From a virus, in the IMG/VR virus record IMGVR_UViG_3300037485_001834, positions 1-21,700 of that record: a DNA stretch of 21,700 nucleotides. One strand, written 5' to 3'. Below the pieces are notes generated by a model. That model saw only the letters and a program-made list of their open reading frames with translations, ran no database searches and was not told where the DNA came from. Both the position numbers and the translations under genes were made by a program. Of the stretch, positions 1 through 10,133 are shown piece by piece. How positions within the stretch are numbered: position 1 is the first letter of the stretch; each line of letters begins with the position of its first letter.

Positions 1-8
1 GATGCCGT

Positions 9-24
9 GGGGGGGGGGTCAGGC
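9..24 (-). repeat. G10 tract in a degenerate gene-junction element
   Basis: The plus strand has ten consecutive G (9-18) followed by TCAGGC. Read on the minus strand this is GCCTGA followed by ten C, where TGA is the stop codon of the 115-aa gene. It resembles the ATGCCTGACCCCACC junction element found four times further right, with the ATG lost and the C run lengthened. A sequencing or assembly length error in the homopolymer cannot be excluded, but it would fall outside the identified coding frame. Confidence 0.5.
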
Positions 25-366
25 GACCCGGGGTCGGGCTTGGATAGCGAGGATGTCCAGAACTTTTGTCGAGTTGCTGTTGATCCAGTAGGGGACCTCC
101 GATACCAAGGTCAGGCCATTGTTTGCCATAGCAGCAACCAACAAAGCCGCATTCCATGGAGTAGCGCGACGGAGCGCCATGGAGATGGTGCCAGAAGCGC
201 GGCCAGTGGAGTCGGAGTACAGCACCCCATAAGCCAGCTGCTTGATGTCGAAATCTGATGTTGCCTGCTCCAGGTTCCGTAACTGCTGCTCAGCGCCACC
301 AGGCTGCTGCCGCTTGTTGCGGAAGGGAGCGGGAATGGAGGCTAAAACCGAAGTGGCGGTTTTCAT
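19..366 (-). CDS. hypothetical protein, 115 aa
   Basis: No family is recognised. The product is a soluble-looking protein with a basic N-terminal stretch (about residues 12-22, FRNKRQQ) and an alanine-rich hydrophobic patch near residues 68-82. I chose the ATG at 366 because it follows the AT-rich string TTTAAAAATG and gives a sensible N-terminus. A GTG at 474 is in frame and overlaps the upstream stop (GTGA), and would add 36 mostly Arg/Pro-rich residues. It is the last complete gene of the left minus-strand operon in this window. The stop lies in a degenerate copy of the operon's junction element. Being a real gene is likely; function is unknown. Confidence 0.6.
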   Translation of the reverse strand: MKTATSVLASIPAPFRNKRQQPGGAEQQLRNLEQATSDFDIKQLAYGVLYSDSTGRASGTISMALRRATPWNAALLVAAMANNGLTLVSEVPYWINSNSTKVLDILAIQARPRVA

Positions 367-368
367 TT

Positions 369-443
369 TTAAAGCCGGCGACGGGGCCGGGTGAGGGCGT
401 CGGGGATCTCTCCCCTGTGCAAATACAGTAGCAGGTCCGTCAC
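369..443 (-). CDS. possible 24-aa leader peptide
   Basis: A short frame begins with GTG inside the 18-bp dispersed repeat (428-445) and reads MTDLLLYLHRGE and onward, ending in TAA two bases before the ATG of the 115-aa gene. The second copy of the repeat, at 2157-2174, opens with the same codons (MTGLLHY) in a 70-codon frame. Shared start codons and the tight spacing to the next gene suggest a translated, coupling leader. The length is too small to be sure, and the repeat may instead be kept as DNA (promoter or operator). Confidence 0.3.
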   Translation of the reverse strand: MTDLLLYLHRGEIPDALTRPRRRL

Positions 444-445
444 GA
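428..445 (-). repeat. 18-bp dispersed repeat, copy 1
   Basis: Plus-strand GTAGCAGGTCCGTCACGA, matching 17 of 18 bases at 2157-2174. On the minus strand it reads TCGTGACGGACCTGCTAC and is followed by TGTATT. It lies upstream of the 115-aa gene. It could be a promoter or operator element, or the conserved start of a short reading frame. Confidence 0.6.
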
Positions 446-470
446 TCTGACGCAGCAAGCCAGGGCCAGT

Positions 471-716
471 TCACGGATTGTTGCGATTGGCCCTGGCCTT
501 AGCCCGCGCCCTGGTGTCGCGCACCCGTTGAGCCTTGGCGAGCCTGCCTAGCGGGTCGCATTTCTCCCAGCAGCTCCAGCAGTACAGGCCATGGGCTCCG
601 GTGTGGACCCTGCTGCAGCCAGGGCCGCTGCATTGCACCTGCTTGACCGGTGGCAGCCGGCCGGCCTTGCGCTCGCGGCGGCGGCGCTCGCGTGCGGCGC
701 CGGTGGGGTCAGGCAT
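471..716 (-). CDS. small basic zinc-finger-like protein, 81 aa
   Basis: Starts MPDPT within a junction repeat, so the frame upstream of this ATG is not used. Residues 9-20 are almost all Arg, Lys or Glu. Cysteines sit at about 29, 34, 46, 49 and 53 (CSGPGC, then YCWSCWEKC), a pattern expected for a small zinc-binding fold. The C-terminus is Arg/Ala-rich and helical. The CxxCWE core is shared with the gene immediately upstream (716-892), so the two are probably paralogues. Its ATG shares bases with that gene's stop (TGATG). A nucleic-acid-binding role is plausible from charge and cysteines but is inference. Confidence 0.65.
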   Translation of the reverse strand: MPDPTGAARERRRRERKAGRLPPVKQVQCSGPGCSRVHTGAHGLYCWSCWEKCDPLGRLAKAQRVRDTRARAKARANRNNP

Positions 717-892
717 CAGCCTCCTCCCTCCGGCAGCAGCCGCACCAGGGCCCACCATTGCCGGGAGCACTGGGCCTCCCAGCAAATCTGACAGACGGTG
801 CCTTCGGTGGCAGAAGGCCAGCGTTCGGCAGGACTGGGGATTGGCTCGGAACAGTCGGAGCAGGAGGGGATGGCGGTGGGGTCAGTTGGCAT
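716..892 (-). CDS. small zinc-finger-like protein, 58 aa
   Basis: Starts MPTDPT in a junction repeat; the ATG lies 11 nt inside the end of the preceding gene. Cysteines at residues 11, 14, 34, 37 and 42 form CSDC and CQICWEAQC, giving two CxxC knuckles about 20 residues apart, a typical zinc-ribbon spacing. The CxxCWE core matches YCWSCWEKC of the next gene. No enzymatic motif is present. Probably a small zinc-binding accessory protein; partner and role unknown. Confidence 0.65.
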   Translation of the reverse strand: MPTDPTAIPSCSDCSEPIPSPAERWPSATEGTVCQICWEAQCSRQWWALVRLLPEGGG

Positions 893-1259
893 TGGCCAGT
901 TTGGCAAGCAGGTCCGAAAGGCTTGTGGCGTACTCGTCACGAAAAGCTACGACTTGAGTATGTAGATCTTGCAGTGTTTCGCATCTAAATGCTTTTTCTG
1001 TGACTTGCTTGCCAAGGACTAAGACGCGTACAGAACCGTCCCACTTGGGTCCATTGTGCGTCTTTGGAGGGTAGAACCTACTTTCAAAACTTACTATCGG
1101 TCCGTCGAAATCAAGCTTGAAGCCGCAATCAAAGCGCCATACAGGGCACTCTGACTTTTTCGATCCCTTGTTGGCCGCATCTTCCCATTCGCAGCCCGTG
1201 GTCCAGTCAACTGGGCAGTCTTTGATGGGGTCACCACCGTTGAGAATGATTTGGTTCAT
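882..1259 (-). CDS. hypothetical protein, 125 aa
   Basis: No family is recognised. The N-terminal third has four cysteines (about residues 15, 23, 38 and 45) among acidic and aromatic residues. The middle looks beta-rich (DFDGPIVSFESRFYPP and VRVLVLGKQV). The last 30 residues look helical. Base composition is visibly less GC-rich than neighbouring genes, so it may have a different origin. The 3' end overlaps the next gene by 11 nt through a junction repeat. The ATG at 1259 overlaps the end of a 29-codon frame. Confidence 0.65.
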   Translation of the reverse strand: MNQIILNGGDPIKDCPVDWTTGCEWEDAANKGSKKSECPVWRFDCGFKLDFDGPIVSFESRFYPPKTHNGPKWDGSVRVLVLGKQVTEKAFRCETLQDLHTQVVAFRDEYATSLSDLLAKLANAN

Positions 1260-1320
1260 GGCTATTGCTGGGGTAAGGCTGGTTGGGGTGCTGACGATCG
1301 GCTTTGGTGGGGTCAGTCAT
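1231..1320 (-). CDS. possible 29-aa micro-ORF
   Basis: ATG inside a junction repeat (MTDPTKADRQHPNQ and onward), ending TGA within TGACCCCATC. It overlaps the end of the upstream gene by 8 nt and the start of the 125-aa gene by 29 nt. The peptide is rich in Pro, Asn, His and Ser and has no predicted fold. It fits the M-x-DPT pattern of its neighbours, which is the only reason to propose it. It may be a coupling leader for the 125-aa gene or a remnant of a deleted gene. Confidence 0.35.
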   Translation of the reverse strand: MTDPTKADRQHPNQPYPSNSHEPNHSQRW

Positions 1321-1588
1321 GGGATTGAGCAGCACTACGCCGGTCCTTGATCTGCTGCCAGAGCCGGATGGCAGCTTGCTCAAATTCCCGGTACTCGGCT
1401 TTCAGGTTGGTGGCATCGGTCACCATGCGGTACCTGACGACCGCGTCCCGTGCAGCATGGCTGGCGTTGGCGGCGCGGCGATAGGCAGGGCTCCAGCCCT
1501 CGCGGCTTCGGATGCGATCGGCAGCCTCAATCAGAGCAAACTGGGCAGCCTGCAGGGCGTCCAGCAGGTCGGCGGTGGGGTCAGGCAT
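1313..1588 (-). CDS. helical hypothetical protein, 91 aa
   Basis: Starts MPDPT in a junction repeat, overlapping the preceding gene by 8 nt. The product is almost entirely helical, with an Ala/Arg/Asp/Glu pattern suited to a helical bundle (DLLDALQAAQFALIEAADR at the N-terminus, REFEQAAIRLWQQIKDRR near the C-terminus). No catalytic or metal-binding motif is visible. Its stop lies in another junction repeat. It is probably a small cytoplasmic accessory protein; function unknown. Confidence 0.65.
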   Translation of the reverse strand: MPDPTADLLDALQAAQFALIEAADRIRSREGWSPAYRRAANASHAARDAVVRYRMVTDATNLKAEYREFEQAAIRLWQQIKDRRSAAQSHD

Positions 1589-1769
1589 CGCCAATCTCCA
1601 CCATTGTGGGCCAGTTGGCCATGGTCGGGTCGTAGGCGGCTTCCAGGGCTGGGAACAGCTCAGCACGGGACAGAGTGATGCTGCCGCCTTCGACGGGCCA
1701 GGAGTGCTGGCAGTTTGCGGTGCTGGTTCGGATGAGCACGTCGGTGATGGTTGGGATGGGCTGGGTCAT
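1581..1769 (-). CDS. hypothetical protein, 62 aa
   Basis: The ATG at 1769 gives MTQPIPTITDVLI, which resembles the neighbours' M-x-DPT starts. A GTG at 1805 would add 12 residues. The sequence contains a single Cys and a pattern of short beta-like strands followed by a helix (SRAELFPALEAAY). The end (EIGDA) runs 8 nt into the next gene through the junction repeat. No family is recognised. Confidence 0.55.
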   Translation of the reverse strand: MTQPIPTITDVLIRTSTANCQHSWPVEGGSITLSRAELFPALEAAYDPTMANWPTMVEIGDA

Positions 1770-1844
1770 GGTGTCAATGGGATGGAATGGATCCGCCAAG
1801 CTCACGGCGCCTGGCGGGTTGGGGGTCGGGGCTGGGGGTCGGGC

Positions 1845-2042
1845 TCACCCCTTGGGCGGAGTGACCCGGTAGCCATGGGCCCTCAGGAGAGCCACGGCAG
1901 CGGCCAGTTCCGCCTCAGTAGCGGCGGCAGGCAGTGCCGGGGCGGATGGCCCCAGCTCATCAGCCAGGCCCCGGTAGAGCCGGGCATCGGCTTGAGCCAG
2001 CTCCCGAAGGGTGGCGCGGAGGGTGTCGGTGATGGCGCCCAT
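1845..2042 (-). CDS. helical hypothetical protein, 65 aa
   Basis: First gene of the left operon. It reads MGAITDTLRATLRELAQADA at the N-terminus and is helical to about residue 30. After a Pro/Ala linker comes a second helix (TEAELAAAVALLRAHGYRVTPP) that resembles a small helix-hairpin domain. No family is recognised. Downstream, before the next gene, is a C-rich stretch with two GACCCCC units similar in base pattern to the junction repeats. The nearest upstream sequence is the divergent control region, so this gene should be the first translated. Confidence 0.6.
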   Translation of the reverse strand: MGAITDTLRATLRELAQADARLYRGLADELGPSAPALPAAATEAELAAAVALLRAHGYRVTPPKG

Positions 2043-2156
2043 AGGTGGGAGTGCTGTGGAGATTGGTTGCCCCGGACTGCTGGGGCGGTTCGGCTCGGTT
2101 TAACGCCTGTAGCCGGCTGGCGATCGGTGGCGGCTCTCGCCTCCGGTCTCCATAAT

Positions 2157-2174
2157 GTAGCAGGCCCGTCACGA
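2157..2174 (-). repeat. 18-bp dispersed repeat, copy 2
   Basis: Plus-strand GTAGCAGGCCCGTCACGA, one mismatch from copy 1 at 428-445. On the minus strand it is followed by ATTATGG, so TGCTACATT could serve as an extended -10 for the left operon. In this copy GTG opens a 70-codon frame (1960-2172) that overlaps the 65-aa gene and looks like a shadow beyond its first codons. Confidence 0.6.
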
Positions 2175-2270
2175 CTCAGCACCCCATCCCCCATCCACTT
2201 AGCAGTCTGTCACAATCCCACCGTTGGCCAGCTGCTGCAAAGGGTCTGGCCATGGCCGCTACGGTTTCAC

Positions 2271-2334
2271 GTTTTGAAGCGTGTTTTAAAGCATGGTTTT
2301 AAAGCATGGTTTTGGGTTATGGTTCTGGGGTCCC
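2271..2334 (+). repeat. 13-bp tandem repeats upstream of early operon
   Basis: Units: GTTTTGAAGCGT (2271-2282), GTTTTAAAGCATG (2283-2295), an identical copy (2296-2308), GTTTTGGGTTATG (2309-2321) and a weak fifth, GTTCTGGGGTCCC (2322-2334). The middle two are perfect. The array is AT-rich in a GC-rich region and ends 15 bp before the first early gene. Likely a protein-binding array (operator or iteron-like); which protein binds is unknown. Confidence 0.75.
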
Positions 2335-2348
2335 ACCGCCCATCCCTC

Positions 2349-2663
2349 ATGGCGATTCAACCATTGCCGCCCGTTAGAAAACTTGAACGAATCATTAAGC
2401 AGCTCGACATCCTGCGTGAAGTTTGGCCGCGCATCGGCTCCGGGTCTTGTCGCTTTGCGCTGAGCATGGTGGCCAAAGACGTTGTTGATTTAGCCGAAGA
2501 ACTCCGCGCCAGCAAGGCCCCTACCACTGGCTTTACCCGGCGTGAGAAAACCCTTCTCAAGCTGGCCCTAGGAGGAATCGCGGCCATTGCCCTTGTTTTG
2601 GGAGGCGCCCACCTTGGCCGCAATGACTACCCCGCCCCCAACGTTGCGAGGGTTGGGCAATGA
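2349..2663 (+). CDS. predicted membrane-anchored hypothetical protein, 104 aa
   Basis: I use the ATG at 2349 (MAIQPLPPVRKLERI). The open frame extends far upstream, but that part is antisense to the left operon and crosses the repeat array. Residues 10-60 are helical and charged. One hydrophobic segment (about residues 70-88, LKLALGGIAAIALVLGG) follows a basic stretch (TRREK), so the N-terminus is probably cytoplasmic with a C-terminal membrane anchor. It is the first gene of the early operon. No family is recognised. Confidence 0.65.
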   Translation: MAIQPLPPVRKLERIIKQLDILREVWPRIGSGSCRFALSMVAKDVVDLAEELRASKAPTTGFTRREKTLLKLALGGIAAIALVLGGAHLGRNDYPAPNVARVGQ

Positions 2664-2758
2664 TGTTTCTCGATTTTTTGTCAATTGTACTTATGGTGCT
2701 AATTGTTATTGGTGCTACTGACTTAGCTCTTCGCTTCCTGCGCATGTGGGGCAAATGA
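2660..2758 (+). CDS. 32-aa single-pass membrane micropeptide
   Basis: An ATG overlaps the previous stop (ATGATG) and the frame ends in an ATGA overlap with the next gene. The peptide is MMFLDFLSIVLMVLIVIGAT followed by a short basic tail (LALRFLRMWGK), which is a clear transmembrane helix with positive charges on the C-terminal side. Exact coupling on both sides argues that it is translated. Role unknown; small phage membrane peptides include superinfection and lysis factors, but nothing specific is shown here. Confidence 0.55.
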   Translation: MMFLDFLSIVLMVLIVIGATDLALRFLRMWGK

Positions 2759-3012
2759 AAGGAGAAGCTGACTACCACCGCCGGCTATCTGCCGACATGG
2801 CCGAAGCCGAGCACCAGGCACAGATCAACGCGCTTGACGACACAAGCGCCTGGGAGAAATTGTGCAAGATTCGTGATGCGCTGGGGGAAAAAATCAATCA
2901 GCCAACACCCCCCAGGAATTTTTACCGGGCTTCATCGTTAAAGCCGGAAACGTCTTACGATGCTGATTACCAAAACGCTTTGCTTAAATCTCATCAGGGG
3001 CTGTCGTCCTGA
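2755..3012 (+). CDS. hypothetical protein, 85 aa
   Basis: ATG at 2755 in an ATGA overlap; an in-frame GTG at 2746 is possible but less likely. The product is hydrophilic. The first 45 residues are helical (HRRLSADMAEAEHQAQINAL), followed by a Pro-rich turn (NQPTPPRNFYRA) and a Tyr/Asp-rich end. No family is recognised. Its stop overlaps the start of the ribbon-helix-helix gene (TGATG). Confidence 0.6.
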   Translation: MKGEADYHRRLSADMAEAEHQAQINALDDTSAWEKLCKIRDALGEKINQPTPPRNFYRASSLKPETSYDADYQNALLKSHQGLSS

Positions 3013-3206
3013 TGGCAAACCTGATCCGCCCCCAGCGGGCACGGCAGTACAAGCCGGCAACGCGCAGAACATCATTGACCATTTCGCTGAATGATGTCCA
3101 GCTTGCGGATGTTCAAGCCGTAATGCTTGAGCAAACCCTGGGAAAGTCTGGGGCTATTCAGTGGATTGTTGACGATTGGCGCAGGATCAAACAAGGGGAA
3201 GCATGA
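3012..3206 (+). CDS. ribbon-helix-helix DNA-binding protein, 64 aa
   Basis: A basic N-terminus (RPQRARQYKPATRRT) precedes a beta strand (SLTISLN, about residues 21-27) and two helices (DVQLADVQAVMLEQ and KSGAIQWIVDDWRRIKQ). That order and size match Arc/MetJ/CopG-type ribbon-helix-helix domains, which dimerise and bind DNA through the paired strands. It is probably a transcription regulator of the phage; the 13-bp repeat array at 2271-2334 is an obvious candidate operator, by inference only. It sits directly before the exonuclease gene with an ATGA overlap. Confidence 0.6.
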   Translation: MANLIRPQRARQYKPATRRTSLTISLNDVQLADVQAVMLEQTLGKSGAIQWIVDDWRRIKQGEA

Positions 3207-4021
3207 AAATCGCCGACTACCACCGCCACCCAGCGTGGTCCCCAACGGCTCTCAAATGCGCCTTTACCCAAACCATGGCGGTGTTCCATCACCGGTTTGG
3301 CCCTGGTGCCGCGCCGTTTGTGCCGTCTGACGACATGAACAAAGGCAGCCTGGTTGACTGCCTCTTGACGCCGCCATTTAACATTGATGGCATGTTTGCG
3401 GCTTATGACAACATCACCCGCAACACCAAAGACGGCAAGGCTAACTACAATCAAGCGGTCGAAAAAGGGCTAATTCCTGTCAGCTCAGCATGGTTTACGA
3501 ATGCCGAAGCGATTGCCCAGGTTCTCAGGGCAGACCCTGACATTGGCCCAATTCTTGACCGGCTAACCGAAGCCTCCAGCCAAGTCCCCCATTTCTGGAA
3601 CGACGACGCCGGCCGCCCCTGCCGCATGTTGCCCGACGTCATCACGATTGACGGCTGTGTGTACGATCTCAAAAAGACAAGAGACGCCAGGCAGAAAAAG
3701 TTCTATTGGCACGCAATGGATCTTGGCTACGATCTACAAATGGCGCATATTCATCTAGGATTCCTGGATAAATATGGCTACCCGCCAGAAGAGATCGGCA
3801 TTATTGACTACGAATGGGAACCTCCCTACGATCGCAGTCTCTCAATTTTGAACGCCGATGACATTGCCATTGGCCTAGAAAAACGCGAGGAGGCATTCAG
3901 GCGGATTGCAGAATGCCAAGCCTCTGGCGTCTGGCCCAGCCACGGGCGGCAATCTTTTCGGCCCGAACGCGCCAGCGTTGAGCCACTGACCATCGACCCC
4001 GATTCCATCACCCTCTTCTGA
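3203..4021 (+). CDS. RecE-like PD-(D/E)XK exonuclease, 272 aa
   Basis: Probably degrades duplex DNA from ends to leave single strands for the downstream annealase. The catalytic region reads MLPDVI (Asp145), then YDLKKT (Asp155, Lys157), the PD-(D/E)XK signature as in RecE and lambda exonuclease relatives. GYDLQMAHIH (Gln179) occupies the place of the family's GYxxQ helix, although the usual QxxxY tyrosine is Ile here. Residues 46-58 (NKGSLVDCLLTPP) match the N-terminal GxxxHxLLLxP-type helix. I chose the ATG at 3203 because AGGGGA lies just upstream and it overlaps the previous stop; an in-frame TTG at 3176 is poorer. It is followed after 1 nt by the RecT-like gene. Confidence 0.75.
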   Translation: MKIADYHRHPAWSPTALKCAFTQTMAVFHHRFGPGAAPFVPSDDMNKGSLVDCLLTPPFNIDGMFAAYDNITRNTKDGKANYNQAVEKGLIPVSSAWFTNAEAIAQVLRADPDIGPILDRLTEASSQVPHFWNDDAGRPCRMLPDVITIDGCVYDLKKTRDARQKKFYWHAMDLGYDLQMAHIHLGFLDKYGYPPEEIGIIDYEWEPPYDRSLSILNADDIAIGLEKREEAFRRIAECQASGVWPSHGRQSFRPERASVEPLTIDPDSITLF

Positions 4022-4022
4022 C

Positions 4023-4997
4023 ATGACCGATTCAGCACTTGCTACACGCGACAACGACGAACTCAGGGTTTTTTCCCTGGATGGGTTTGAGATAGCTCAG
4101 CGGATGGCCAAATCCTTGGCATCTTCTACGTTGGTGCCAAAGATATACCAGGGGCAGGAAGGCCTAGCCAATTGCCTGATTGCATTGGAGCTTGCGGGCA
4201 GGATGAAGATTTCTCCGATGGTGGTCATGCAAAACATGGTCCCCATTCATGGCCGCCCGTCCTGGAGTAGTCAGTTTTTGATCGGCACGGTAAACGCTTG
4301 CGGCAGGTTTTCGCCGTTGCGCTATATTTTCGACAACGAAGACGAGCCTACTTCCTGCTACTGCGAAGCCAAGGACCTTGCCTCTGGTGAAATCCTAAGG
4401 GGTGAAAAAATTACCATTGCCATGGCTAAAGCCCAGGGTTGGTGGAGCCGCAAAGACTCAAAAGGCGCGGAAACCAGCAAGTGGTTCACTATGACCGGCC
4501 AAATGCTGCGGTTTCGAGCTGCTTCATGGTGGCAGCGGGTTCACTGCCCAGAGCTATCCCTGGGGCTGCCCACGCAGGAGGAAGCCATCGACGTGGAGGC
4601 TGTCACCGTGTCCGAGGTGCCAGCAGCGGCCATTGCCCCAGCAGTCCCCGAGCCCCTGACGCACCGAGCCGAGGAGTCGGCCGAGGCGGCCACCCCAGCA
4701 GCAGAGTCCACCCCAGCCCCAGAGCCCCAGCCTGCGGAACCCGAGCCCGAACCCGAACCCACGCCGGCATCATCCCAGCCAGCCCCGATCGACACCCTGG
4801 CCACCACCAACGGCCCGGAACCCGCTGAACCGGGCACGGTTGAACGCCTGCCCCAGGGGCGAACCGTTATTGCCGCTGACCCCCAGCCAGAACTTGCGCC
4901 TGCCCCCGCAGCTGCTCGCCGGGTCGTGCCCCAAGTCCGCCGGCCGGCCCCTGCTGCGCCCCCAGCTGCAGATGCCCCGATCCCTGGCCTTGACTGA
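4023..4997 (+). CDS. RecT-like single-strand annealing protein, 324 aa
   Basis: Residues 20-190 resemble the RecT-type annealases of proteobacterial prophages: AQRMAKSLASSTLVP, CLIALELAGRMKISP, then VVMQNMVPIHGRPSWSSQFL and a C-terminal MLRFRAASWWQRVHCPELS. Such proteins anneal single strands left by the partner exonuclease, here encoded immediately upstream. From about residue 195 the protein becomes a 130-residue Pro/Ala/Glu-rich tail with EPEPEPEP runs and a basic patch (RRVVPQVRRP), ending APIPGLD. This tail is probably disordered and is unusual for the family. The annealase call rests on motif recollection plus context; it may be catalogued elsewhere only as a conserved phage protein. 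Confidence 0.7.
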   Translation: MTDSALATRDNDELRVFSLDGFEIAQRMAKSLASSTLVPKIYQGQEGLANCLIALELAGRMKISPMVVMQNMVPIHGRPSWSSQFLIGTVNACGRFSPLRYIFDNEDEPTSCYCEAKDLASGEILRGEKITIAMAKAQGWWSRKDSKGAETSKWFTMTGQMLRFRAASWWQRVHCPELSLGLPTQEEAIDVEAVTVSEVPAAAIAPAVPEPLTHRAEESAEAATPAAESTPAPEPQPAEPEPEPEPTPASSQPAPIDTLATTNGPEPAEPGTVERLPQGRTVIAADPQPELAPAPAAARRVVPQVRRPAPAAPPAADAPIPGLD

Positions 4998-5027
4998 TCG
5001 CCCCATCTCATCCCATCGAGCCCCCTC

Positions 5028-5729
5028 ATGCAACGCCTAGTCCTCCTGGCCTATATCGCCACCGCGCCCACCCTCAAGCCCGCCCCAAATGGCGGCGAAC
5101 AGCTCGTTGCCTTCCAGGCAGAGATTGCCCCGTACAAATTCGAAGACGCGCCCATGCCCCTGCTGGTCACTGCCTGGGGCTCTACTGCTGAACGGGTGAT
5201 GACCGGCGGCATCCAGGCCAACTCCTACGCGAACATCGTCGGCCGTCTCCGGATCCAAAATAGCCAGCCTCCAGAGTTCCAGCTGTCCGAGTTTCATGGG
5301 GTCAGCGCCCCCCTCGCGCTCCCCGGCGTCAACGAGGTTTGCCTGGTTGGCCGCGCCGGCAGAGATCCCGAGGTCCGCTACTTCGAGTCCGGCGGCATGG
5401 TCGCCAACCTCACCCTGGCAGTAAACCGCCCCAGCCGGGACGATGAGCCCGACTGGTTCGACCTTGCTGTCTGGGGCAAGCAAGCCCAGGTTGCAGCTGA
5501 CTACGTGCGCAAGGGCTCCTTGCTGGGCATCACCGGATCATTCACCCTGGACTGCTGGACCGATCGCACCACGGGCGCTGAGCGCACCAAGCCCGTCATC
5601 CGGGTGGTGCGGCTGGATCTGCTGGGGAGCAGGCGGGACGCTGAGGGCGGAGGAGGCCCGGTCCGCAGTGCTGCGCCGCTGCAGTCATGGGGCGGCATCG
5701 ATGAGGGCGGCGATGAGATCCCCTTCTGA
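5028..5729 (+). CDS. ssb: single-stranded DNA-binding protein with two OB folds, 233 aa
   Basis: Residues 101-205 are a bacterial-type SSB OB fold very like the picocyanobacterial SSB (NEVCLVGRAGRDPEVRYFES, PDWFDLAVWGKQAQVAADYV, KGSLLGITG, LDLLGSRRD). The C-terminus DEGGDEIPF is the acidic-hydrophobic tip through which SSB recruits partner proteins. Residues 1-90 look like a second, divergent OB fold resembling the Ycf41/cyanobacterial SSB-like family (VTAWGSTAERV, ANIVGRLRI). The protein is therefore longer than the usual 120-180 aa and may act as a compact dimer of two-fold chains. It follows the annealase gene by 30 bp and is probably host-derived. Confidence 0.85.
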   Translation: MQRLVLLAYIATAPTLKPAPNGGEQLVAFQAEIAPYKFEDAPMPLLVTAWGSTAERVMTGGIQANSYANIVGRLRIQNSQPPEFQLSEFHGVSAPLALPGVNEVCLVGRAGRDPEVRYFESGGMVANLTLAVNRPSRDDEPDWFDLAVWGKQAQVAADYVRKGSLLGITGSFTLDCWTDRTTGAERTKPVIRVVRLDLLGSRRDAEGGGGPVRSAAPLQSWGGIDEGGDEIPF

Positions 5730-5772
5730 TGATCAAACGCCCTCGATTGAATCACAATCACCCCAAAGGCCC

Positions 5773-6426
5773 ATGACCATTCCAACGCCCCGCGCCGCAC
5801 TGAAGGCTGAGCCGGAGGGGCCGACGATGGCAGAAGAGGCCCTGGTCGCGCTAGATCGAATTCAGCGTGGCGACACAAGCTCCGGCTCCGATGACTTCGA
5901 TTTAGTCGCCAACGCATTAGGTCAGTTACGCCGCTGGGACACCCCCGCCACCCCGCCAGCGCCGGAGCCGGGGGAACAACCTGTAAGCCAGCCTTACGAG
6001 TTGCCGGAGCCGGGGGAGATGCCGAGCGACGAGCTGATGGGGCAATGGAGGAACGCCGCGCTTGCAGAGTACCGATCCGGCGGCGAACCCACCTGGCGCA
6101 CGTCGGCCCTGTTGGCCATTACCTGGGCACGCCAGCAGCAAGCCACCGAGCTAGCCGCCCTGCGGGGGCTGCCGGTGGCGTTGAGCGAGTGGGAAGACGC
6201 TTTCATGGGTGGCGTCTGTGCGGCGCTGGCAACGGTAACGGCACATGGCGACAGTGTTATTTGGAGAGAGATTGTGCGTTCAGTTGGTGTTGACAATGCC
6301 CTGAATTATGCGGCGAATGTAAACCCTGAGGATTGGGAGTTAGCCGGCTTCAGTAACTACGCTCAGCCTGAACTGGGCAAGGACAAGCCACGACCAGCGC
6401 CCCAGGCTGGGGAGGGGGAGGCGTGA
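5773..6426 (+). CDS. hypothetical early phage protein, 217 aa
   Basis: ATG choices are 5713 (overlaps ssb), 5773 and 5827 (preceded by GGAGGGG at good spacing). I prefer 5773 because it keeps the AEPEGPT stretch, which I recall from other phage early proteins. Residues 55-90 are Pro/Gly/Glu-rich with a repeated PEPGE unit: the DNA string GCCGGAGCCGGGGGA occurs at 5961-5975 and 6003-6017, 42 bp apart. The remainder is helical, with two Trp-containing segments (RTSALLAITWARQQQ and EWEDAFMGGVCAAL). The C-terminus AGEGEA is encoded by a purine-rich repeat that doubles as the next gene's ribosome-binding site. Function unknown. Confidence 0.65.
   Translation: MTIPTPRAALKAEPEGPTMAEEALVALDRIQRGDTSSGSDDFDLVANALGQLRRWDTPATPPAPEPGEQPVSQPYELPEPGEMPSDELMGQWRNAALAEYRSGGEPTWRTSALLAITWARQQQATELAALRGLPVALSEWEDAFMGGVCAALATVTAHGDSVIWREIVRSVGVDNALNYAANVNPEDWELAGFSNYAQPELGKDKPRPAPQAGEGEA
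6406..6426 (+). repeat. 21-bp gene-end repeat, copy 1
   Basis: GCT followed by GGGGAGGGGGAGGCGTGA, identical over 21 bp to 6671-6691. It encodes a C-terminal AGEGEA and the stop, contains strong purine-rich Shine-Dalgarno-like sequence, and includes the GTG start of the next frame overlapping the stop (GTGA). Confidence 0.85.
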
Positions 6427-6512
6427 AACAGGATGCGTGGGTAGTGTTCTGGATCTGCTTTTTTGTTTATCAAATTGTCATTCAACTTTATCCGCACGGA
6501 GTTCAACCATGA
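6423..6512 (+). CDS. 29-aa membrane micropeptide
   Basis: A GTG overlaps the previous stop (GTGA) directly after GGGGAGGGGGAGG, and the frame ends in an ATGA overlap with the next gene. The peptide begins MKQDAWVVFWICFFVYQIVI and ends QLYPHGVQP, giving one hydrophobic helix of about 16 residues. Perfect coupling on both sides and the strong upstream purine tract support translation. No function can be assigned. Confidence 0.55.
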   Translation: MKQDAWVVFWICFFVYQIVIQLYPHGVQP

Positions 6513-6691
6513 GCAATCAAGCCCAACAGTCACAAAGTCTTTCAGATCAAGATTTCAAGGATAAATACGTGGCGTGGTTTAAGCAATGTCACGGGCGCAA
6601 ACCGTACTTTGACATTCCGCCGCATCAAATTGAGTTTGCTCGTTATTTGCTTGGGCAAAGGCAGGTTGACGCTGGGGAGGGGGAGGCGTGA
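6509..6691 (+). CDS. hypothetical protein, 60 aa
   Basis: ATG at 6509 with GGAG eight bases upstream. A Gln/Ser-rich N-terminus is followed by a helical, aromatic-rich middle (FKDKYVAWFKQCHGRKPYF) and a second helix (HQIEFARYLLGQRQ), ending DAGEGEA from the 21-bp repeat. The two-helix arrangement suggests a small compact domain, possibly protein- or DNA-binding. No family is recognised. Base composition before the repeat is lower in GC than the neighbours. Confidence 0.6.
   Translation: MSNQAQQSQSLSDQDFKDKYVAWFKQCHGRKPYFDIPPHQIEFARYLLGQRQVDAGEGEA
6671..6691 (+). repeat. 21-bp gene-end repeat, copy 2
   Basis: Identical to 6406-6426. It ends one gene with AGEGEA-stop and supplies the ribosome-binding sequence and GTG start for the next. 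A looser relative (GGGGGAGGGGCTGTGA) ends the gene before thymidylate kinase near 7956-7971. Confidence 0.85.
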
Positions 6692-6960
6692 CCTCTCTCT
6701 GTTTCCAGGCTCGCCCCCGCGACGGGGATGAGTACGTCGGCTACGTGTTTGCCCTGAGCAGAGGCAAGGCACGGGCCCTGGCGATGCAAAGCGAACCCGC
6801 ATCGGAATGGCCTTACCTGCCGGGAGACTTCACCCTCTGGTCCGTCCGCCGCCGTCCCACCATGGATGGACGGGCCCCGGTTGGTGCCGCCTGGTGGTCG
6901 CCGGAGGATGTGCCGCAGGATGTCGGGATCGTGCTGGCTGACTTGTGGATTGATGGATAA
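6688..6960 (+). CDS. hypothetical protein, 90 aa
   Basis: GTG start in a GTGA overlap with the previous gene, immediately behind the purine-rich 21-bp repeat. The sequence mixes short beta-like strands (EYVGYVFALS, DFTLWSVRRRP) with a Trp-rich C-terminal half (APVGAAWWSPEDVPQDVGIVLADLWIDG). It is soluble with no obvious motif. The absence of any better overlapping frame and its tight spacing support it. Function unknown. Confidence 0.6.
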   Translation: MTSLCFQARPRDGDEYVGYVFALSRGKARALAMQSEPASEWPYLPGDFTLWSVRRRPTMDGRAPVGAAWWSPEDVPQDVGIVLADLWIDG

Positions 6961-6980
6961 CCAACCCAACACCTAACACC

Positions 6981-7025
6981 ATGACCCTTTTCCAGATCAT
7001 CAAAAAACACGCTAAACCGCTATGA
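6981..7025 (+). CDS. possible 14-aa leader peptide
   Basis: The short frame MTLFQIIKKHAKPL ends in ATGA, overlapping the start of the ASCH gene. It fills the only gap in this part of the operon. It may be a coupling leader, but chance cannot be excluded at this length. Confidence 0.25.
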   Translation: MTLFQIIKKHAKPL

Positions 7026-7417
7026 CTCTCGCTCTCAGCATCCGTCAACCTTGGGCCAGTTTGATCCTGTTGGCTGGTAAAGACATCGAAAACCGCACAT
7101 GGGAGACCAGGGTGCGGGGGCCGATTCTAATTCATGCGGCTAAAGGTATGACAAAAAGGGAATACATAGAGGCTAGGTCTTTTGCCAGTTTTGCGACTTG
7201 CATCCTTGACCCAGTCAGACTTGATGTTCTTGAGCTAGCCCACCTGCCTCGCGGCGGCATCATTGGCAGCGTAAATCTCGTGGATTGCGTTTATCAATCT
7301 GATTCGCCATGGTTTCAAGGCCCTTATGGTTTTGCTCTGCGCGACCCAAAGCCGCTGCCATTTGTTCCTGTCAAGGGTCAACTTGGCTTCTTTGATGTGC
7401 CGGGGGTGCAGCCATGA
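7022..7417 (+). CDS. ASCH-domain protein, 131 aa
   Basis: The sequence matches the ASCH/PUA-like fold: ALSIRQPWASLILLAGKDIE near the start, ENRTWETRVRGPILIHAAKG (residues 20-40), a central PRGGIIGSVNLVDC strand pair and a C-terminal GYxxxLRDPKPLPFVPVKGQLGFFDV-type end (about residues 100-126). ASCH proteins are predicted RNA or modified-nucleotide binders, and some members act on acetylated cytidine. Phage copies are common but rarely characterised. It sits between small unknown genes and shares an ATGA with the next gene. Family assignment is secure; the substrate is not known. Confidence 0.85.
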   Translation: MTLALSIRQPWASLILLAGKDIENRTWETRVRGPILIHAAKGMTKREYIEARSFASFATCILDPVRLDVLELAHLPRGGIIGSVNLVDCVYQSDSPWFQGPYGFALRDPKPLPFVPVKGQLGFFDVPGVQP

Positions 7418-7971
7418 ACCGCCCCACCCTTCACACCCTCACCACCCTGCTCAACCCCTGGCGGACGATCCGCCGGCTTCAGAAAACCCTCGAAGATCCC
7501 CTTCTCGCCGGGATTGAGATCGGCCGCGACGCCGCCGGCTTGACCGCGGGCTTCCGGGGCTCAGGCCCGCAGTTGCTCGCCGGCATGTTCCTGGGCCTCC
7601 TGCAGGAGCACCCTGAGGCAGTGAACTACCTGCAGCTGACGTTCGACTCCCCCGAGGGGTTGATCCTGGTCACGGTCCAGCGCCCTGGCGGCGCCAGCCC
7701 CCACGGCCTGCGGGCCATGGCGGAGCAGGAGGCCCGGAACTTGCGGGCGGAACTGGACGCCGCCCAGGAGCAACTGGCGACGACCAGGGAGGCGCTGCAA
7801 CGGTTGCGGCGCTGGGGCGGCTGGCCCCTTGCGGCCCCCAATGGTGCCTGGGATGCTGATGTTGCGCTTGGCGTTGGGGATTGGCTCAAGGCCGGCATGA
7901 CCGGCCCCCTGCCGCCGCTGCCGGAGCATCTGGCGCAGCGGGAGAAAGCTGAAGCGGGGGAGGGGCTGTGA
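7414..7971 (+). CDS. hypothetical coiled-coil protein, 185 aa
   Basis: ATG in an ATGA overlap with the ASCH gene. The N-terminal 100 residues mix helices and strands (WRTIRRLQKTLEDPLLAG, VNYLQLTFDSPEGLILVTVQ). Residues 105-132 form a clear coiled coil (AEQEARNLRAELDAAQEQLA). A Gly/Pro/Trp-rich end follows, closing with AEAGEGL from a loose copy of the gene-end repeat. No family is recognised. The coiled coil suggests self-association. Confidence 0.65.
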   Translation: MNRPTLHTLTTLLNPWRTIRRLQKTLEDPLLAGIEIGRDAAGLTAGFRGSGPQLLAGMFLGLLQEHPEAVNYLQLTFDSPEGLILVTVQRPGGASPHGLRAMAEQEARNLRAELDAAQEQLATTREALQRLRRWGGWPLAAPNGAWDADVALGVGDWLKAGMTGPLPPLPEHLAQREKAEAGEGL

Positions 7972-8621
7972 CCAAAGGCCTATTCATCGTCCTCGAAGGC
8001 GTCGACGGCTGCGGCAAAACCACCCAGCTACAGGCCCTGTACCGATGGCTGCCCCACAGCGGCCTGATGCCCCCAGGCGCTCAACTCGTGACGACCTGCG
8101 AGCCTGGCGGCACGCTCTTAGGCCTGGATCTGCGGGAGTTGCTGCTGCACCGTTCCGCCGCTGCTCAGCCTGTGCCTATGACCGAGCTGCTGCTCTACGC
8201 AGCCGACCGCGCCCAGCACGTCGTTCAGGTGATCAGGCCGGCGCTTGATCGCGGTGACTGGGTGCTATGCGATCGGTTCACCGGGTCCACCGCCGCCTAT
8301 CAGGGCTATGGCAGGGGGCTGGATTTGGAGGCGATCTACGCCCTGGAGTCCATCGCAACCAGCGATATTCCATTCAGTCTCCAGCCTGACCTGACCCTCT
8401 GGCTGGATGTGTCCCTCGCCGAGTCCTGCCGCCGCCGTGGCGGCCAACTGGCCGATCGCATCGAGGGGGAGGGGGCGGAGTTCCTGGCCCGCGTGAAGCA
8501 AGGGTTCCTGAAGCTGCACGTGCAACGGGATTGGGTCCGCGTCGACGCGGGTCAGCCCGTGGCCGACGTGACAACGACCTGCCGCAACATCATCACAAAT
8601 TTCATCGAGGCCACCAAATGA
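7968..8621 (+). CDS. tmk: thymidylate kinase, 217 aa
   Basis: Phosphorylates dTMP to dTDP using ATP, supporting dTTP supply for DNA synthesis. The P-loop is GVDGCGKTTQ (residues 11-20), the DR motif is CDRFTGSTAAYQGYGRGL (101-118) and the lid is CRRRGGQLADRIE (154-166). Length is normal for the bacterial enzyme. The usual REPGGT motif reads CEPGGT (44-49), so the arginine that is normally conserved there is cysteine. It starts with GTG in a GTGA overlap after GGGGGAGGGG. Wording of the motifs looks cyanobacterial, which suggests capture from a host; this was not tested by search. Confidence 0.9.
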   Translation: MTKGLFIVLEGVDGCGKTTQLQALYRWLPHSGLMPPGAQLVTTCEPGGTLLGLDLRELLLHRSAAAQPVPMTELLLYAADRAQHVVQVIRPALDRGDWVLCDRFTGSTAAYQGYGRGLDLEAIYALESIATSDIPFSLQPDLTLWLDVSLAESCRRRGGQLADRIEGEGAEFLARVKQGFLKLHVQRDWVRVDAGQPVADVTTTCRNIITNFIEATK

Positions 8622-8911
8622 CCGATCTTCTACGCACCACCCTCGCCCGCCGGGGCACGGTTGCCGCTGACACCCTGCTGGATTGCCTGGCTCTGGTGGT
8701 GGTCTTGGGTGCACGCTACCCCGATTCTGTCCGCCCAATCGCGCTAACCGATCGGCTGATCACCCTGAAGGAGCTCCGCCGGGCCCGGTGCTGCTCCAAC
8801 TGGGAGGCGATCCAGCGCATGGATGCGCTGCAGGTTGCCCAGCTGGTCGATACCACCTACCACTCCGGCCGCAACGCCTGGTGGGAAGTGCATCGCGTGG
8901 GGCCGGCATGA
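8618..8911 (+). CDS. hypothetical protein, 97 aa, possible winged-helix
   Basis: ATGA overlap with tmk at the start and with the methylase gene at the end. An N-terminal hydrophobic helix (LLDCLALVVVLGARY) looks like a buried helix rather than a membrane span. The segment ITLKELRRARCCSNWEAIQR followed by MDALQVAQLVDTTYHSGR is reminiscent of a helix-turn-helix, but the match is weak. The C-terminus has WW and is neutral. Function unknown. Confidence 0.6.
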   Translation: MTDLLRTTLARRGTVAADTLLDCLALVVVLGARYPDSVRPIALTDRLITLKELRRARCCSNWEAIQRMDALQVAQLVDTTYHSGRNAWWEVHRVGPA

Positions 8912-9846
8912 CGCTGGCCGCCCCCTTCCCTTATTTCGGTGGCAAGCGCCGCGCCGCGCCCCGTATTTGGCAAGCCCTCGGCGATCCCGGCGGCTACGTC
9001 GAGCCCTTCGCCGGGTCTGCCGCCGTACTACTGGCCCGCCCTGACTTCACCGGCCGCCGGGTTGAAACCCTAAACGACGCTGACGGGTGGTTGGTCAACA
9101 CCTGGCGAGCCATCCAGCTCAGCCCCGCCGAGGTGGCCCGTCACGCTTGGGGCCCGGTGGCTGAGATCGACTACCACGCCCGTTTGGCATGGCTGCAGCA
9201 GCGCCGCACCCCCGATCTGGTGGCATGGCTTGAGGGCGACGCCGAGGCCCATGACGCCAAGGCCGCCGGCTGGTGGCTATATGTGGTCGCCTGCGGCATC
9301 GGTGATCCATTTGGCCCTGGTCCATGGCGGGTGATTGACGGCCACCTTCGCAAGCTGCCGCACCTGGGGGATGCAGGGCGGGGTGTGAATCGCAAGCTGC
9401 CGCACCTGGGGGATGCAGGGCGGGGTCCGCTGGAGGCTTACATGGGCCAACTTGCTGATCGCCTGCGCCGCGTGCGGATCACTTGCGGATCGTGGGAGCG
9501 GGTCGTAAAACCATCCGTCACCCGCAGCGGCGCCGGTGGCGATGGCGCCCGAGCGGTCTTCCTGGATCCGCCCTACGCCACGTCGGGTGATCTCTATGCC
9601 CATGTCGATGCTGACGTTGCCCTGGCCGTGCGCGAATGGTGCATCACCGCCCCCCGTGAACTGCGGGTGATCCTCTGCGGCTATGACGCCGAGCACGATG
9701 ACCTTCTGGCCCGTGGCTGGTCCGTCACCGAAGGCAAGGCAGGTGGAGGGGCTGGCTACAGCACCAATGGCCTGAATGGTCGCCGCGAGCGGCTGTGGTT
9801 GTCGCCGGCTTGTGTTGGCAGTGCTCAACCCGACCTATTCGCGTGA
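8908..9846 (+). CDS. dam: DNA adenine methylase, D12 class, 312 aa
   Basis: Transfers a methyl group from S-adenosylmethionine to N6 of adenine. Motifs in order: PFPYFGGKRRAAP (residues 6-18, AdoMet side), YVEPFAGSAAVLLARP (30-45), LNDADGWLVNTWRAIQ (55-70) and the catalytic DPPY in VFLDPPYA (217-224). A 14-residue duplication (RKLPHLGDAGRG units at 148-161 and 162-175) sits in the middle, where target-recognition elements of this family usually lie. The recognition sequence cannot be read from the protein. No partner endonuclease gene is next to it, so an orphan methylase guarding against host restriction is most likely. Confidence 0.88.
   Translation: MTLAAPFPYFGGKRRAAPRIWQALGDPGGYVEPFAGSAAVLLARPDFTGRRVETLNDADGWLVNTWRAIQLSPAEVARHAWGPVAEIDYHARLAWLQQRRTPDLVAWLEGDAEAHDAKAAGWWLYVVACGIGDPFGPGPWRVIDGHLRKLPHLGDAGRGVNRKLPHLGDAGRGPLEAYMGQLADRLRRVRITCGSWERVVKPSVTRSGAGGDGARAVFLDPPYATSGDLYAHVDADVALAVREWCITAPRELRVILCGYDAEHDDLLARGWSVTEGKAGGGAGYSTNGLNGRRERLWLSPACVGSAQPDLFA
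9349..9426 (+). repeat. 42-bp-period tandem repeat inside dam
   Basis: Two identical 36-bp blocks (9349-9384 and 9391-9426) separated by GTGAAT, so the period is 42 bp or 14 codons. Each encodes RKLPHLGDAGRG. The duplication stays in frame and is identical at the DNA level, so it is recent or kept uniform by recombination. Confidence 0.95.
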
Positions 9847-9848
9847 CC

Positions 9849-10133
9849 CTATCCCAATCCCCCCAGCACCTCCCGCGCCCATTGGTGGTGCTCGTCACCT
9901 GGGGGCTGCAGCGGCCGAGCATCACGGGCGAGCACCAGCTCCACCTCCAGGCACCGCACACGGCCCAGCAGGGAATCGATCAACACCTTCTGGTCGTAAG
10001 CCTGAACAATCAGCCGGTCGGCCAGAATGCTCAGATCGTCGCGGCAAAGGTGGGCAGCAGTCCGCCGATCAAGGGCGCGGCTCAGCTGCGTTTCTAAAGT
10101 CAAATCAGGCAACCGCCAACCGTGAGACGCCAT
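9849..10133 (-). CDS. helical hypothetical protein, 94 aa
   Basis: Start ATG at 10133, sharing CATG with the start of the plus-strand gene at 10132. The frame upstream of this ATG is antisense to that gene and is not used. The product is almost entirely helical (DLSILADRLIVQAYDQKVLI, then a heptad-like LLGRVRCLEVELVLARD), suited to a coiled coil. It ends 2 nt after the methylase stop, tail to tail. No family is recognised. It is the only plausible gene in the interval, so being real is moderately likely. Confidence 0.5.
   Translation of the reverse strand: MASHGWRLPDLTLETQLSRALDRRTAAHLCRDDLSILADRLIVQAYDQKVLIDSLLGRVRCLEVELVLARDARPLQPPGDEHHQWAREVLGGLG

Follow-up and report, generated by a model that had tools for sequence, protein, structure and literature searches.

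The window, i.e. the whole stretch of 21.7 kb that was analysed, is an IMG/VR virus record with RecE/RecT-like, SSB, methyltransferase and siphovirus tail genes. Its left part contains an operon of small genes on the minus strand. Gene A (1845-2042, 65 residues), the first small gene of the operon, has no family match above threshold; it is separated from gene B (1581-1769, 62 residues) by a spacer with the hairpin CCGCCAGGCGCCGTGAGCTTGGCGG (1793-1817, minus strand), which is a variant of the second boundary element described below and whose spacer sequence is also found in the related loci L131, L133 and L138. Then follow gene C (1313-1588, 91 residues), which in relatives has short forms terminating at the next joint, ORF D (1231-1320, 29 residues), gene E (882-1259, 125 residues), gene F (716-892, 58 residues), which has two CxxC motifs, and gene G (471-716, 81 residues), which combines a basic RRYR-type N-terminus with a CxxC...CxxC arrangement and is the constant anchor downstream of a variable slot. 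The motif DPTxADRQ of ORF D also occurs at the beginning of gene-G family members; ORF D is probably the remnant of a gene-G type start, not a gene. The gene after G (19-366) has its stop codon at 19-21; its end, GCCTGACCCCC, bears the gene-end signature, which is cut by the contig edge.

The starts of C, D, F and G share the form ATG(C/A)CTGACCCCACC or the 3 nt longer ATGCCAACTGACCCCACC. In the window, CTGACCCCACC occurs in exactly four copies (702-712, 875-885, 1306-1316 and 1574-1584), all on the minus strand and confined to the left operon; 100 dinucleotide shuffles of the window gave a mean of 0.00 copies. Joint copy 1 (1574-1588, ATGCCTGACCCCACC, start at 1588) holds the stop of gene B and the start of gene C, and copy 2 (1306-1320, ATGACTGACCCCACC, start at 1320) the stop of C and the start of ORF D. 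Copy 3 (875-892, long form ATGCCAACTGACCCCACC, start at 892) ends gene E, which itself starts without a joint, and begins gene F; copy 4 (702-716, again ATGCCTGACCCCACC, start at 716) begins gene G. The short forms encode the N-termini MPDPT, MPDPT and MTDPT, the long form encodes MPTDPT. In three copies the TGA of the previous gene lies inside the joint (B, 1581-1583; C, 1313-1315; E, 882-884); in the fourth, from F to G, the stop of F is outside the internal TGA of the joint and forms a separate TGATG overlap. The element can be written as the 15-bp sequence ATGNCTGACCCCACC, which provides a stop for the preceding gene and the start plus four first codons for the next gene, with a stop/start overlap of 8 nt, or 11 nt in the long form. 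Upstream of the joint the sequence varies among copies, and the shared block extends from +1 to +15. The block CCTGACCCC is also common at gene ends of this operon, including that of the last gene. Thus, the minus-strand reading bears out the original observation of a four-copy junction element that supplies the start and first codons of the next gene (MPDPT/MTDPT/MPTDPT) and, in three of four copies, the TGA of the previous one.

Relatives of the locus were gathered with RecT, C, F and G as queries and with an alignment of the G family, which gave 97 loci including the window and, after removal of redundancy, 58 loci with 593 kb. The large tail protein of the window is 32-37% identical to those of the Synechococcus phages S-LBS1, S-CBS1 and S-CBS3, and in the genome collection the sole match of gene G is a metagenome-assembled genome (MAG) of Synechococcaceae bacterium WB9_2_112. 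Judging by these similarities, the host is presumably a relative of Synechococcus or Cyanobium, and the element appears to belong to uncultured phages that are distant relatives of Synechococcus siphoviruses. A megablast search with window positions 1-10000 found nothing among named phages, and neither did a tblastn search with gene G. The gene G family is a widespread small protein whose N-terminus is basic (RQRRYRxRQAG) and which has two CxxC pairs. It is conserved as an anchor behind a hypervariable slot and has no Pfam match and no relative among named phages.

In the 58 non-redundant loci, CTGACCCCACC occurs 64 times, whereas the reversed motif gave 0 copies and permuted 11-mers a mean of 0.73, none of them at a start; the motif is therefore far more frequent than these controls. 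The copies lie directly after an ATG in 56 cases, at stop codons in 6 and within four codons of a start in 2. After most of the six stop-codon copies there is a hairpin region, terminator-like or of another kind. No copy was found deep inside a gene in the 593 kb, and the motif is not equally frequent within genes, as all 64 copies are at or near gene boundaries. In whole records the copies are clustered together. The 2.4-Mb MAG contains only three copies of ATGNCTGACCCCA, all within one phage-like contig; the motif is absent from the remaining MAG and from S-LBS1, S-CBS1 and S-CBS3 (59-61% GC), and a host-wide or GC effect was rejected on these grounds. Note that gene calls were mechanical and that the caller favoured motif starts. 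With these calls, 92 ORFs starting with the motif fall into 32 protein clusters, and about 30 unrelated clusters start with the block. The internal TGA is the stop of the previous gene at 67 of 93 motif starts and a TGATG overlap is found at 14 of 93; overlap lengths are 8, 11, 1 or 4 nt. In L208, L168, L174, L176 and L215, gene G starts with GTGAGCGACCCCACC, where the previous stop overlaps as GTGA; in these starts the right half of the block is retained and the left half is different.

Gene B is present in 11 loci and ends in 10 of them with ATGNCTGA or a one-base variant. At least seven different genes come next: C in the window and L132, a gene starting with MQASDW in L143, G in L166 and L218, genes starting with MPDPTVRTT in L208, with MLDPTAH in L188 and with MPDPTGADRQPMD in L144, and MPDQSPEW, with only a partial block, in L131 and L136. 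In L217, gene B lacks the motif, and the gene order there is also different. The slot between B and G is empty in L218 and contains C in L132, an unrelated gene in L188, the MQASDW gene in L143, and C, D, E and F in the window, so that the arrangements B-G, B-C-G, B-X-G and B-MQASDW-G are found in different contigs. Ahead of G, about 31 different families occur, as counted from the mechanical gene calls. For 27 pairs of junctions with a common upstream end (mean identity.87 over 45 nt), which derive from about five such ends, the downstream identity is.30, i.e. random. In the pooled profile, identity is.85 at +9 to +15 and.33 from +16, so that similarity ends at the motif. Pairs with different upstream and the same downstream genes rise from about.3 to 1.0 at the ATG, and pairs differing on both sides have an identity of.34 after the block. 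These data agree with the prediction that gene content changes exactly at the motif. For the junctions B-C, C-G, F-G and MQASDW-G, no relative with conserved order and a lost motif was found. The compared contigs suggest that cassettes in the interval from B to the anchor G were gained, lost and exchanged for others, the breakpoints lying at the element.

Breakpoints were also located by local DNA alignments between the operons, 370 of whose 2180 interior ends fall at the block, compared to 16 expected; most of these breakpoints concern the one gene G, which was itself a search query. When homologues were aligned at their starts, similarity stopped at the start codon in 229 of 243 (94%) pairs of gene G and in 7 of 11 (64%) pairs of other motif genes. 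For genes without the block the value was 12 of 130 (9%), and similarity mostly extended upstream beyond 60 bp (7/11 versus 12/130, Fisher P = 6e-5). The pairs are not independent, G served as the query, and the gene caller preferred motif starts. In 125 pairs of G the alignment begins exactly at the A of the ATG, and L145 and L153 are 88% identical over 1744 bp starting exactly at the ATG. In L133, the tail of gene C (..RRSAAQSHD, requiring ATGACTGA) is joined to a C start, giving MTDPTADLL, unlike the C gene after B, which reads MPDPTADLL. This is a hybrid joint, in which the left and right ends of the block come from different junctions. For real 3' ends, the base at +4 is the same in 78% of the pairs that share the upstream end, in 55% of those that share the downstream gene and in 50% of unrelated pairs, the first value being expected if crossovers lie to the right of +4; when pairs were instead defined by protein families, with short and long forms of gene C pooled, the values were.64 and.69. 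ORF D of the window and the genes of L134 and L144 retain about ten initial codons of a G-type gene, and in L143 an MQASDW start is cut off; these look like remains of earlier, interrupted cassettes. In L143 (4599-5237, plus strand), gene G is found twice, with the copies about 165 bp apart; in the spacer between them, the truncated following gene is fused to the tail of the preceding gene about 25 bp before the block. Thus, breakpoints occur away from the block, too.

A second kind of boundary element lies between other genes of these operons. It is a spacer, about 50-60 bp long, that begins with the stop codon and reads GCCTGACCCCCACGG-CCCGCCGG(G)(A)GCC..CC(C)GGCAACCCATCCCAC, or in short GCCTGACCCCCACGG-CCCGCCGG..CCGGCAACC, followed by ATG. 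The pattern gave 52 hits in 35 loci, a few of which are false and lie inside genes, versus 1 hit for the reversed control. Examples on the plus strand are L143:3550-3598, L184:4186-4235 and L218:4738-4786; there are about 45 others, and the window variant is at about 1793-1817 on the minus strand. The spacer folds into a six-pair stem, in which one pair is changed on both sides. Gene switches are observed at these hairpin spacers as well. Spacer and start joint open with the same GCCTGACCCC, and TGA followed by CCCC is found at 30 of 108 spaced gene ends of these operons versus 5 of 162 elsewhere; therefore, the start joint may represent a condensed version of a common gene-end sequence.

The codons of the block are strongly fixed. 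In ORFs starting with MxDPT, proline at codon 2 is always CCT (41/41; background 16%), codon 3 is GAC in 58/62 (background 54%), codon 4 is CCC in 58/62 (background 31%) and codon 5 is ACC in 57/62 cases (background 55%); these figures are inflated by relatedness, the same block nonetheless recurring across unrelated families. Third positions of gene G are identical at.92-1.0 within the block and at.49-.56 just after it, even at an invariant alanine. Hence, the choice of codons is not demanded by the amino acids, and the counts at positions 2-5 led us to reject codon or amino-acid bias alone as the cause. A general strong ribosome-binding site at motif starts was likewise rejected, a Shine-Dalgarno-like sequence being present at 22 of 75, and so was RNA structure at the joint, as the four window copies gave no consistent fold (z-values -1.8 to +1.0).

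Taken together, the placement at boundaries, the switching of genes, the breaks at the start codon and the hybrid joint are the reasons why we lean slightly towards reading ATGNCTGACCCCACC as a boundary element of a mosaic small-gene operon, through which cassettes are exchanged. A single process, exchange through the block, would account for the gene switches, the hybrid joint and the sequence in common. Since the stop of the block and its start, the latter with four filler codons, are in different frames, any two cassettes carrying it could be joined without disrupting either reading frame; a gene that is broken or fused inside the block would still end or begin in frame. Recombination would take place between copies of the block, and in some cases, at least, the crossover would lie within the common sequence. 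A ribosome arriving from upstream would stop at the TGA, which lies five bases beyond the A of the following ATG, and restart at this ATG; such termination and re-initiation at the overlap would hold expression together, and translation may in this way be coupled across the joint. The original idea of a cassette joint is partly supported: its predictions on boundary placement and gene switching held, and the short identity of 15 bp may be the homology that drives the exchange. This length is below that of known efficient annealing substrates of the RecT/Red type. A universally encoded annealase was rejected, as a RecT model matched 4 of 19 records tested, one of them over its cut-off; the RecT-like protein of the window scores with PHROGs, not with that Pfam RecT model. 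Assembly chimeras at the repeat seem unlikely: usual assembly k-mers are longer than 15 bp, and several of the joints are seen in more than one contig.

The fixed codons are accounted for equally well by the main rival reading, in which function comes first. According to it, the block is a translational or regulatory start element under selection, either a reinitiation joint or the operator of an RNA-binding regulator; genes would be joined by random illegitimate recombination, and only joints keeping the element would survive. The constancy of codons 2-5 and of the third positions in G fits such selection, as do the frequent use of the internal TGA as a stop (67/93) and the low number of Shine-Dalgarno-like sequences (22/75). 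However, other genes of the same operons start without the block behind hairpin spacers, where no Shine-Dalgarno sequence was found (0/26), so the block serves no general need of translation. It is also kept in TGATG and GTGA joints, in which the internal TGA is not the stop; the four window copies lack a consistent RNA fold, and a search for an antisense copy of CTGACCCCACC within the window found none. We regard this explanation as possible but not probable. If the block were instead the 5' end of G or of an ancestral gene, which others gained by tandem duplication and fusion without continuing exchange, then the first ten codons of G in ORF D and in the L134 and L144 genes, and the truncated MQASDW start and repeated G of L143, would be natural traces. 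Yet outside the block most motif genes have no resemblance to G (identity.34 for pairs differing on both sides), and the same upstream ends lead into many unrelated genes, B alone into at least seven, which makes this origin unlikely. That MxDPT is simply a common N-terminus in GC-rich genomes is suggested by a pattern scan of the whole collection, which also matched many unrelated phages with single MxDPT starts; but the shuffled, permuted and reversed controls yield next to no copies, and the real copies gather in a single region, with none in the remainder of the MAG. For the clustered copies chance is refuted by the shuffles and permutations, and as a general explanation it is highly improbable.

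Joints of mosaic genomes at gene boundaries are an old question. They are usually explained by random joining plus selection, and short conserved boundary sequences have been proposed for them, which are unidentifiable at most joints (PMC3029335). Here, a boundary sequence is findable and precisely placed, and enough contigs carry it to measure breakpoints against it; therefore, the two models can be compared directly. The opinion that no named element resembles the block had to be given up, as lambdoid boundary sequences, the PeSLs of T4-type phages and the SAS of mycobacteriophages are relatives in kind. The lambdoid boundary or linker sequences were proposed for module exchange by general recombination (Susskind and Botstein 1978; Clark et al. 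2001, HK620; as cited in PMC3029335). Like them, the block is a short sequence at boundaries flanking exchanged genes, and the hybrid joint of L133 and the concordance at +4 would fit a substrate of homologous recombination; unlike them, one 15-bp block is repeated within one operon over the stop and start codons of many unrelated small genes. PeSLs are promoter/stem-loop cassettes, i.e. intergenic early promoters with stem-loops (Arbiol 2010; Comeau 2014; as described in PMC4503421). They too are repeated between small non-core genes and mark changes of gene content, but the block is coding and overlapping, without a stem-loop; the hairpin spacer is nearer to a PeSL than the start joint is.

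SAS and ESAS are known from Cluster K mycobacteriophages (PMC3203893) and Microbacterium cluster EF phages (PMC7302621). They lie upstream of the start in the position of a ribosome-binding site, mostly after gaps of over 50 bp, and have been proposed as operators of an RNA-binding regulator. The block has in common with them that it is short, strongly conserved, asymmetric, found at the starts of different gene families and absent from the host; in contrast, it spans +1 to +15 beginning at the ATG, and instead of large gaps there are overlaps by the internal TGA (67/93) or by TGATG (14). Overlaps such as ATGA and TGATG are known from termination-reinitiation (PMC6728339). The joints resemble these in that neighbouring stop and start codons overlap within a few nucleotides (8, 11, 1 or 4), whereas the common overlaps consist of stop and start alone and the block adds a conserved downstream 11 bp. 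To our knowledge, neither these 11 bp nor a link to gene switching is part of the common stop/start overlaps. None of lambdoid boundary sequences, T4 PeSLs and SAS is known to embed start, stop and first codons. We conclude that the block belongs among the boundary-sequence elements; it differs from SAS and PeSLs in position and shares with them the distribution over unrelated genes. Tentatively, one may go further and regard it as a standardised coding joint, consisting of a stop for the incoming gene, a start and neutral leader for the outgoing gene and homology for exchange, which would make small genes plug-compatible, with no need for promoters, ribosome-binding sites or a site-specific recombinase. 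The block also offers a natural design for in-frame gene cassettes.

Two further stretches are shared with relatives. Downstream of G (window 380-470, minus strand; also in L183, L196 and L138), CCGTCACGGGTGCGCTA..AT....ACCGGGGGGAGAGATCCC is found ahead of the next gene and looks like a promoter with leader. Upstream of the operon (window 2060-2120, minus strand; L004 at about 7620-7680, minus strand), a strongly conserved non-coding stretch reads CCAGCCGGCTAYAGGCGTTAAACCGAGCCGAACCGCCC..GTCCGGGG..CAACCAA, which is perhaps a leader or promoter region.
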